This document shows, piece after piece, positions 3,702 through 9,856 of a stretch of DNA of 54,132 nt. The notes under the pieces are model-generated. The model saw only the letters and a list, made by a program, of their open reading frames with translations, made no database searches and had not been told where the DNA came from. The stretch is from Thermoflexibacter ruber (lineage in GTDB: Bacteria > Bacteroidota > Bacteroidia > Cytophagales > Thermoflexibacteraceae): NCBI RefSeq assembly GCF_900113045.1, contig NZ_FONY01000037.1, forward strand, positions 1 through 54,132, given 5' to 3'. How positions within the stretch are numbered: position 1 is the stretch's first letter; each line of letters opens with the position of its first letter. Made by a program: the position numbers and the translations under genes.

Positions 3702-3920
3702 CTAAAAATCTTTCACAAAATCGTTTTGGCGACGGAGATATTTGCGAATATTAAGCCAAAAAGCTAATACCAAGTAAACAAGGATAGGCGAGCCAAAAGT
3801 AAGAAAAGAAGTATAAATGAAGTACATACGAATAACGCCACTGGAAATGCCCAGCCTTTCGCCTAATTTAGAACACACACCGAATGCTCTCTCTTCCAAG
3901 AAATTATGCAAAAACTTCAT
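3702..3920 (-). CDS. PspC-domain small membrane protein
   Basis: A 72-residue protein matching the PspC fold: FGVCSKLGERLGISSGVIRMYFIY is followed by a membrane helix around residues 34-56 (FLTFGSPILVYLVLAFWL) and a basic tail NIRKYLRR. PspC proteins are linked to membrane-stress responses; the short single-domain form is common in Bacteroidota. Its stop is only 22 bases from the stop of the converging phosphatase gene, and I see no strong hairpin between them. Upstream on its strand is about 150 bases of AT-rich spacer. Confidence 0.85.
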   Translation of the reverse strand: MKFLHNFLEERAFGVCSKLGERLGISSGVIRMYFIYTSFLTFGSPILVYLVLAFWLNIRKYLRRQNDFVKDF

Positions 3921-4070: not shown

Positions 4071-4442
4071 TTATCTAAGTGCCTTCTTATCTACATACTC
4101 GCAGATTTCTCCGATAGTAGTAAACTTATTGGCTTCATTGTCTGGAATTTCTATTTCAAATTCAGCTTCTACGTGCATTACCAATTCCATGTAGCTAATG
4201 TCTTCTATGCCTTTTTTTACTCCAATATCTACTAATTTAGTTTCAGGTTTAATACTGTCCAATTCAATATCAAGTACTTCGCTGGCAATTTTTTTTACCT
4301 CAGGAAAAGAAGCATGATGGTCATACTTGACTTTGGCACTACGTTCATTTTGAGAAATAGAAATACGCTCACTCTTATTAGGTCTATCACAACCCAACAG
4401 TAATAAAAAAATAGGCAAGAGATGATAAACAAAAGTTTTCAT
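4071..4442 (-). CDS. Lipoprotein with acyl-carrier-protein-like domain lacking the carrier serine
   Basis: Starts at ATG 4442 with a lipoprotein signal, MKTFVYHLLPIFLLLLGC; a TTG five codons earlier would only lengthen the signal. After a charged linker, roughly the last 75 residues align with acyl carrier proteins: VKKIASEVLDIE, IKPETKLVD, ELVMHVEAEFEIEIPDNEA, then FTTIGEICEYV, close to the ELVMALEEEF...EIPDEEAEK...TT pattern of AcpP. At the position of the DSL motif the sequence reads EDI, so the phosphopantetheine-bearing Ser is Asp, and three residues are inserted before it. It should be exported and lipid-anchored, where no holo-ACP chemistry is expected. Function unknown; a binding or scaffold role is a guess. 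Confidence 0.8.
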   Translation of the reverse strand: MKTFVYHLLPIFLLLLGCDRPNKSERISISQNERSAKVKYDHHASFPEVKKIASEVLDIELDSIKPETKLVDIGVKKGIEDISYMELVMHVEAEFEIEIPDNEANKFTTIGEICEYVDKKALR

Positions 4443-4494
4443 GGTAAAAAAACTCAACAGTGAAATGAATTAAATTCGTTAAGCTATATAACGA

Positions 4495-4591: not shown

Positions 4592-4700
4592 ATTGATACA
4601 GTCTTTTCTTTTATTAATTGCAAATATACAATTTTGTTTTGATAAAAAGCAAACATAGTCTTGATTTTAAAGATTTTATTCTTAATTTTCGTTGTTAAAA

Positions 4701-8465: not shown

Positions 8466-9140
8466 ATGGGCAAAGATAAATACCAACCAAAAAACTATGA
8501 TACATCAGAGAAAATGCGTCTTTGGGTGATAGTTGTTGCATTTCTTATTTTGACAGGCATCATTTATTGGGTATTGCAACCTCCCACTTCCTCTACTGCT
8601 ATTGAAACTGTGATAGAAGAACCTATTTTAGCAGTAAATGATAAAAAAGTTACCAAAGTAGATAATGCAGAGCCAGCGCCAGTACCTTCTACAGAGGAAA
8701 AAGTAGAAACAGAGCAAAAAACAGAAGCTAAAAAAGAAAAAAAGCCTTTAGAAACGAAGAAAATAGAGAAAAAAGAAGTAACTAAACCCTCTATCAATGA
8801 GGCAGAAGCACTTGTATTGGTAGATGAAATGGCTACTCCTTTGAGCGGGTACGAATCCTATTATCGCTACATCAGAAACAATATGAAATATCCAAGCGAG
8901 GCGATTAAACAAGGCACACAAGGTAATGTAACCGTAGAGTTTATCGTAGACAAAGAGGGTAATTTGCACAATATCAGAATTAAAAAAGGAATAGGGCATG
9001 GCTGTGATGAGGAAGCAATCAGAGTAGTAAAGGCAGGAGAAAAGTGGAAGCCCGCTAAAAACAAGGGAAAAATAGTCATGCAAAAAATCACACTTCCGAT
9101 TTCTTTCAGGCTAAATGATAGCGATAAAATGAAAAATTAA
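8466..9140 (+). CDS. TonB-like energy-transducing periplasmic protein
   Basis: 224 residues. There is a short cytoplasmic N terminus, one membrane anchor at about 18-37 (RLWVIVVAFLILTGIIYWVL), and a Lys/Glu/Pro-rich periplasmic linker (about 55-112). A C-terminal TonB domain follows: YIRNNMKYPSEAIKQGTQGNVTVEFIVDKEG, then IKKGIGHGCDEEAIRVVK and IVMQKITLPISF. It should span the periplasm and energise outer-membrane TonB-dependent receptors, or act as a stand-alone TonB-C protein. No ExbB/ExbD or receptor genes are nearby. The stop overlaps the stop of the convergent lipB gene by 4 bases, the two sharing TTAA. Confidence 0.88.
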   Translation: MGKDKYQPKNYDTSEKMRLWVIVVAFLILTGIIYWVLQPPTSSTAIETVIEEPILAVNDKKVTKVDNAEPAPVPSTEEKVETEQKTEAKKEKKPLETKKIEKKEVTKPSINEAEALVLVDEMATPLSGYESYYRYIRNNMKYPSEAIKQGTQGNVTVEFIVDKEGNLHNIRIKKGIGHGCDEEAIRVVKAGEKWKPAKNKGKIVMQKITLPISFRLNDSDKMKN

Positions 9141-9856
9141 GAGAAATGTTCTATTAGCTCTAAATCAAATAGTTCCACCAAATACTTTAACAGCGTATTT
9201 TCTACTTCCCGAAGGCTGACCTCTCTGCCAAGTTCCTGAGCCAGAGAGGTAACTGCTTTATCAGCAATCCCACAAGGGACGATATTTTTAAAGTAATCTA
9301 AATCTGTATTGATATTCAGAGCAAATCCGTGCATAGTTACCCAACGGCTCGCCCGCACTCCAATCGCACAGATTTTTCTTGGATTTTTCTGCTCCTCAAA
9401 GTCTATCCATACCCCTGTGAGTTTTTCTATTCTCCCTGCGGTTACGCCATACTCCGCCAAAGTTAGGATTACGGCTTCTTCTATGGTTCTCAGGTACTTA
9501 CCAATATCAGTAAAAAAATTGTCCAAATCAAAAATAGGATAACCCACAATCTGCCCGAAGCCGTGATAGGTAATATCTCCACCCCTATTGGTATGAAAAT
9601 AGTCTATATTGCGTTCTTTTAGTACTGCTTCGCTTAAAAGTAAATTTTGCTCATCGCCACTTTTCCCCAAAGTATAGACGTGGGAATGTTCACAAAAAAT
9701 CAAATAGTTAGTCGTAGGTATCTGTTCGCTTTCAAGCTTTTGTCTATTACTAACCTTCTGAGCAATGACCTTTTGAAACAAACTTTCTTGCTTTTCCCAT
9801 GCTTCTTTGTAAGGAATGATTCCCCAATGCTGGAATATGGTCTGGTGATTTTTCAT
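9137..9856 (-). CDS. lipB: Octanoyl-[acyl-carrier-protein]:protein N-octanoyltransferase
   Basis: 239 residues with all LipB landmarks: HVYTLGKSG, the RGGDITYHGFGQIVGYP block (91-107), catalytic Lys161 in RKICAIGVR, and the acyl-thioester Cys195 in IVPCGI. It moves octanoate from ACP to lipoyl domains of 2-oxoacid dehydrogenases and the glycine-cleavage H protein, the first step of lipoate synthesis; lipA is not in the window. The ATG overlaps the stop of the esterase gene upstream by four bases (ATGA), a sign of translational coupling in a three-gene minus-strand operon. Confidence 0.95.
   Translation of the reverse strand: MKNHQTIFQHWGIIPYKEAWEKQESLFQKVIAQKVSNRQKLESEQIPTTNYLIFCEHSHVYTLGKSGDEQNLLLSEAVLKERNIDYFHTNRGGDITYHGFGQIVGYPIFDLDNFFTDIGKYLRTIEEAVILTLAEYGVTAGRIEKLTGVWIDFEEQKNPRKICAIGVRASRWVTMHGFALNINTDLDYFKNIVPCGIADKAVTSLAQELGREVSLREVENTLLKYLVELFDLELIEHFS

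Follow-up and report, generated by a model that had tools for sequence, protein, structure and literature searches.

Results

The gene and its surroundings

The window, the whole stretch of 54,132 nucleotides analysed here, corresponds to contig C32 in a genome of 5.5 Mb, 99.64% complete. It contains a small gene whose product, here called the ACP-like lipoprotein, is composed of a signal peptide with the lipobox LLLLGC, a linker and, over residues 46-121, a domain resembling acyl carrier proteins (ACPs) (Table 1). The ORF begins with the ATG at 4442 and ends with the stop codon at 4071-4073. An alternative TTG start at 4457 was also found in the ORF listing, but the ATG is the point from which both relatives in the genus align.

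Table 1. Features of the ACP-like lipoprotein gene and its upstream region
Feature	Position	Strand	Basis
CDS of the 123-aa ACP-like lipoprotein, stop included	4071..4442	minus	ORF listing and genus alignment
Predicted signal peptide and lipobox, residues 1-18, last residue lipobox Cys18	4389..4442	minus	pattern match, shuffles; Cys18 invariant in 3 genus copies
Variable linker, residues 19-45, 3-4/27 identical between copies	4308..4388	minus	pairwise identity; low pLDDT
PF00550 ACP domain, residues 48-117	4092..4301	minus	profile matches and model
Additional loop residues 75-78, ahead of helix 2	4209..4220	minus	spacing count
Asp81, at the place of the phosphopantetheine-bearing serine (Ser36, E. 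coli AcpP)	4200..4202	minus	alignments; Asp in 3/3 genus copies
Helix 2, residues 82-95, ACP recognition helix	4158..4199	minus	DSSP on model; conservation
Possible Bacteroidota-type -7 element TATATTTG	4621..4628	minus	motif scan; weak, motif common in window

Downstream on the same strand lies the gene for a small PspC-domain protein (3702-3920), and a divergent gene for a DUF2157 membrane protein (PF09925) lies upstream. The DUF2157 gene adjoins the ACP-like gene in this genome (G000) and in one relative in the genus (G002), and it is on another contig in the other relative (G001), where the ACP-like gene stands between genes for a prolyl-oligopeptidase-like lipoprotein and a sigma-factor-like protein. 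In G008, which has one divergent same-family protein, the neighbours are a RecJ-like gene and a gene for an amidohydrolase-like lipoprotein (names in G001 and G008 given by eye). A conserved operon was looked for and not found: no neighbourhood is common to the three genus copies, the context in G008 differs too, and no partner for the ACP-like lipoprotein emerges from these four neighbourhoods. The sigma-factor-like gene in G001 is split over two overlapping frames (L100, about 8598-9145), perhaps by an assembly error or a frameshift. At the start of the window, the ORF at 50-337 resembles, on reading, the final part of a transposase.

The possible -7 element was scored against what we take to be the Bacteroidota-type consensus, and TTTG is found by eye at 4650-4653, with a spacer of 21. 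Over both strands of the window TANNTTTG occurs 96 times, with 74 expected and 94 as the largest count in 100 shuffles, and this excess is in line with a promoter element of the Bacteroidota type. When promoter and terminator consensus sequences were scanned for, matches were fewer than in shuffles.

PF00550 matches three proteins of this genome: the ACP-like lipoprotein on C32, a protein with DSL on C77 and, on C28, the canonical ACP. Since the cell has a normal carrier ACP on a separate gene, the ACP-like lipoprotein gene is a spare copy.

ACP domain and predicted fold

The ACP-like domain proposed in the preliminary description was recovered by PF00550 at 38.7 bits (cut-off 20.8) on the protein, and separately at 37.8 bits from the genome DNA. 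The AcpP equivalog TIGR00517 scored 49.5 bits, below its cut-off of 70.45. Of the 19 NCBIfam matches almost all are to acyl carrier proteins, and each falls short of its own cut-off; DUF1493, presumably another ACP-like family, is absent from the Pfam matches at E values up to 0.1. The best sequence match in the PDB is an Aquifex ACP (3.3e-10). The mature domain of the window copy has a net charge of -9.

The AlphaFold2 model of the window copy, built from only three sequences, has a mean pLDDT of 74.6, with 62 residues at 90 or above. For most of residues 51-120 the block means lie at 92-94; they drop to 78 in block 71-80, which holds the loop, and to 72 over the last residues, and the signal and linker stay below 50. 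DSSP assigns helices to residues 46-57, 70-73, 82-95, 101-104 and 110-121 of the model. The 50 Foldseek matches listed are by title all ACP chains or complexes with an ACP inside, and the best match in a second structure comparison is a Thermus ACP (Z 14.7, rmsd 1.9, 78 residues aligned). For helical bundles a Z value below about 13 can be uninformative, but many ACP matches here exceed it and the sequence match agrees. The preliminary description had named a structure other than the ACP four-helix bundle as evidence against its reading, and the predicted structure is such a bundle. Homology of the ACP-like lipoprotein to ACPs is well supported by sequence and predicted fold. A chance match is ruled out by the profile score, the modelled structure and conservation in the genus.

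Loss of the carrier serine

At the DSL position the window copy reads E80-D81-I82, as had been read from the letters at first. The equivalence of Asp81 with Ser36 comes from an alignment to the Aquifex ACP and from numbering on E. coli AcpP. The carrier serine expected of PF00550 and the ACP superfamily is replaced by Asp in the window copy and in both genus relatives. Homologues retaining a DSL serine, which the preliminary description considered would point to a mutation in one strain, were not found in the genus, and with Asp in all three copies such a mutation is ruled out. Of the other ACP sequences in the loci compared, 62 have the usual spacing, and by script these comprise 59 with DSL, two with SSL and one with EES. 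G009 has two near-identical ACP-like copies with SSL for DSL (L024 1777-2046 and L025 1255-1524).

Asp has no hydroxyl for the phosphodiester. The S36T form of E. coli ACP is described as refractory to modification (PMC3340395). The exchange of the carrier serine for Asp in this genus is well supported by the alignments, and so the ACP-like lipoprotein is predicted not to be a carrier protein. Residue 81 lies directly before helix 2 in the model, and it is reasonable to suppose that Asp81 may cap helix 2 as Ser would.

Between the conserved Gly and the helix-2 Glu (Gly74 and Glu86 in the window copy) the spacing is 12 residues in four lipoprotein-type sequences and 8 in the 62 others. The loop before helix 2 gains four residues after the Gly and loses one ahead of it, and this net gain of three agrees with the three-residue insertion reported earlier. 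Eleven further matches gave no Gly-Glu spacing; on reading, nine are reverse-frame and two (L028 and L041) are other ACP-like proteins.

Signal peptide and predicted export

The N-terminal segment LLPIFLLLLGC fits a PS51257-like lipobox pattern, in the form that we take it to have, and when these residues were shuffled 10,000 times, 5 shuffles gave the pattern together with an early Lys or Arg, which bears out the lipoprotein signal first noticed there. The pattern is found in the window copy, G002 and G008 and fails in G001, which has Arg at -1; Cys18 is aligned in all three genus copies. The ACP-like lipoprotein is likely to be exported and lipidated.

Starting at the lipobox Cys, the window copy reads C-D-R-P-N-K, and the other two genus copies read C-G-K-K-E-A and C-E-S-K-N-T. 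A surface export signal (LES), C-X-K-(D/E)2, is described for Capnocytophaga lipoproteins (PMC5080379). Compared by eye with that description, the signal is absent from all three genus copies, although no surface signal is established for the order of Thermoflexibacter. Because of this absence, a periplasm-facing form appears likelier than one exposed at the cell surface.

A cytoplasmic carrier would fit the good ACP profile match and the Ser at the carrier position in G008, if the N-terminus were unexported or if Asp81 were a local change with the cofactor on another residue. This is very improbable, however, as the signal and Cys18 are retained across the genus, Ser is absent from all three copies and the AcpP equivalog cut-off is missed.

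Relatives and distribution

The three-row profile matches all 13 genomes of the family, but only the three genomes of the genus match along the full length. A four-row profile was applied to 291 genomes of the order, with at most 15 candidates scored per genome, and the full-length matches among those listed are in G000, G001, G002 and G008. In a class draw of 395 genomes three match at E 1e-12, two of them (G030 and G518) over the ACP domain only, and in a phylum draw of 395 genomes the one match at E 1e-13 is this genome itself. No further full-length relatives were found in these two draws, which evidently did not include G001, G002 and G008. A named genome collection gave 29 stretches with two relatives, both Cytophagales MAGs.

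Twenty further loci, 19 chosen for a long open frame around the ACP match and one (G518) for its class-search score, have no lipobox ahead of the ACP domain, by script and by reading of the listed stretches. A scan for a lipobox ahead of the ACP match flagged only G008 among 98 loci; the three genus copies were unflagged because their ACP match already spanned the signal.

The G001 copy is without seven residues near helix 4, matches PF00550 at 28.0 bits over residues 48-104, and gave a model with a mean pLDDT of 45.3, which is not confident. The G001 genome is 62% complete. At least one lineage may, judging from this copy, have given up the anchored fold.

The G008 protein has Ser at the aligned carrier position, in S-S-P-E and not in DSL. 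It has L-I-V where the genus copies have L-V-M, and M, S and A at the positions of E96, E98 and D101. It scores 31.6 bits with the three-row profile, less than the 38.3 bits of that genome's canonical ACP. A tree groups it with the three genus copies (88/87) but flags a branch of 3.2. The shared 12-residue Gly-Glu spacing favours a common origin of the G008 and genus copies. G008 may represent a serine being lost after export, or it may be an independent case.

In seven of the nine loci viewed from Cytophagales genomes (L007, L008, L055, L057, L063, L068 and L072), a sensor histidine kinase of about 451 aa is directly followed by another type of ACP (DSLDYAE), and Pfam HATPase_c was checked on two of these kinases. 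C77 of this genome carries both a kinase relative and a DSL ACP, with about 6 kb between them. An origin of the ACP-like lipoprotein from the kinase-linked type has no support in the tree.

Conservation of helix 2

Over residues 79-101, which comprise helix 2 and its flanks, three pairs of genus copies are identical at 18/23, 18/23 and 19/23 positions, and over the linker at 3/27, 4/27 and 4/27. The codons of the identical helix-2 residues have changed synonymously at 12/17, 8/17 and 9/18 positions in the three pairs. Conservation of residues 79-101 despite codon change indicates that constraint acts on the recognition helix at the protein level. The three genomes' canonical ACPs have two or three differences over the stretch listed (by eye), and the DUF2157 neighbour is 72-75% identical within the genus, whereas the ACP-like lipoprotein is 45-47% identical. 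As both the canonical ACP and DUF2157 are far more alike, the ACP-like lipoprotein as a whole evolves fast around a fixed helix 2.

A decaying relic is the main rival to a docking role. An ACP paralogue would have gained a signal peptide and lost its serine, no modification being possible outside the cytoplasm, and would now drift under weak constraint with no present function. The narrow distribution, the low overall identity and the G001 copy, with its poor lipobox, seven-residue deletion and lack of a confident model, are all consistent with this. On the other hand, the open frame is kept in three species, Asp81 is invariant, and the helix-2 block is preserved through many synonymous changes, so that we consider a relic unlikely.

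All three genus copies have L87, V88, M89, F95 and I99, which correspond to L42, V43, M44, F50 and I54 of E. coli ACP. According to PMC3340395, mutation at these five E. coli positions breaks SpoT binding, and V43, M44 and L42 sit in the helix used by fatty acid enzymes. The acidic residues E92, E96, E98 and D101 are also kept in all three copies. ACPs bind divalent cations. A binder or sensor in which these acids of helix 2 bind Ca2+ or Mg2+ in the periplasm, altering conformation or contacts, would fit their retention and the strongly negative domain. Acidic residues at these places are common among ACPs, however, and call for no new role, and three of them are exchanged in G008, which makes cation binding decidedly improbable.

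Small size, fast evolution, narrow distribution and the lack of a fixed neighbourhood would also suit a lineage-specific immunity or competition lipoprotein, in which the ACP fold binds an incoming toxin or enzyme. No toxin gene was recognised beside the ACP-like gene in the ORFs listed, and it is the linker that changes fast, not the exposed helix 2. We give such a role very little credence.

Discussion

Proposed function

Our data are best explained by an ACP paralogue that is exported and lipid-anchored, carries nothing, and is kept as a docking module acting through helix 2, probably facing the periplasm; we give this about an even chance. Docking through helix 2 is preferred because selection has kept this helix. 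A type II signal peptide would direct export, acylation of Cys18 and the flexible linker would hold the ACP domain at the membrane, and the domain would lie at the outer or inner membrane, on its periplasmic side. With Asp81 in place of Ser the attachment site would be gone and the fold kept through capping of helix 2. Helix 2, acidic and with an L-V-M core, would be retained as a surface for ACP recognition and would dock on a basic and hydrophobic patch of an envelope partner. The docked module might then be an adaptor, an assembly factor or a regulator.

The preliminary description had suggested recognition of an ACP-binding partner. The preservation of helix 2 fits this suggestion. The Ser of G008, in SSP, and the shortened C-terminus of the G001 copy do not, and the export and lipidation on which it depends are predictions. 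The failed lipobox, seven-residue gap and pLDDT of 45 in G001 also count against the docking module, as do the low identity within the genus compared with DUF2157 and the lack of a common neighbourhood, with no partner found.

A bolder proposal is that these proteins form a dedicated family of extracytoplasmic ACP mimics, lipid-anchored and never acylated, whose helix 2 recruits or regulates an envelope enzyme or assembly machine. This is possible but doubtful. ACP recognition through helix 2 has so far been understood as cytoplasmic or organellar and tied to the phosphopantetheine arm. If the proposal is true, the recognition code of fatty acid synthesis has moved to the periplasm, and an exported ACP fold with Asp and a kept helix 2 separates docking from carrier function in nature. 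It would be a compact example, open to experiment, in which a metabolic carrier has become an envelope docking protein. Even as a relic, the ACP-like lipoprotein shows what stays when an ACP leaves the cytoplasm.

Comparison with known systems

No described ACP-fold lipoprotein was found in the titles and opening lines of abstracts in the literature searched. The ACP-like lipoprotein resembles AcpP (PF00550; TIGR00517) in its predicted four-helix fold, its acidic helix 2 with ELVM, the positions of F50 and I54, and the length of the domain. Unlike AcpP, it has an N-terminal lipoprotein signal and a linker, Asp for the carrier serine, a loop longer by a net three residues, and a score under the AcpP equivalog cut-off. 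In its signal it is similar to periplasm-facing lipoproteins of Bacteroidota, which have a type II signal with lipobox and no C-X-K-(D/E)2 after the Cys. ACP complexes in which the ACP is a bound structural or docking subunit occur among the structure matches, and the ACP fold as a bound partner is shared with AcpM and MmpL5, the ACP in MukBEF, and the ACP with ISD11/Nfs1. As far as is known, these ACPs keep the carrier serine. Unlike the ACP-like lipoprotein, whose predicted place is the periplasm, they are cytoplasmic or mitochondrial, and the abstract on MmpL5-AcpM terms AcpM cytosolic.
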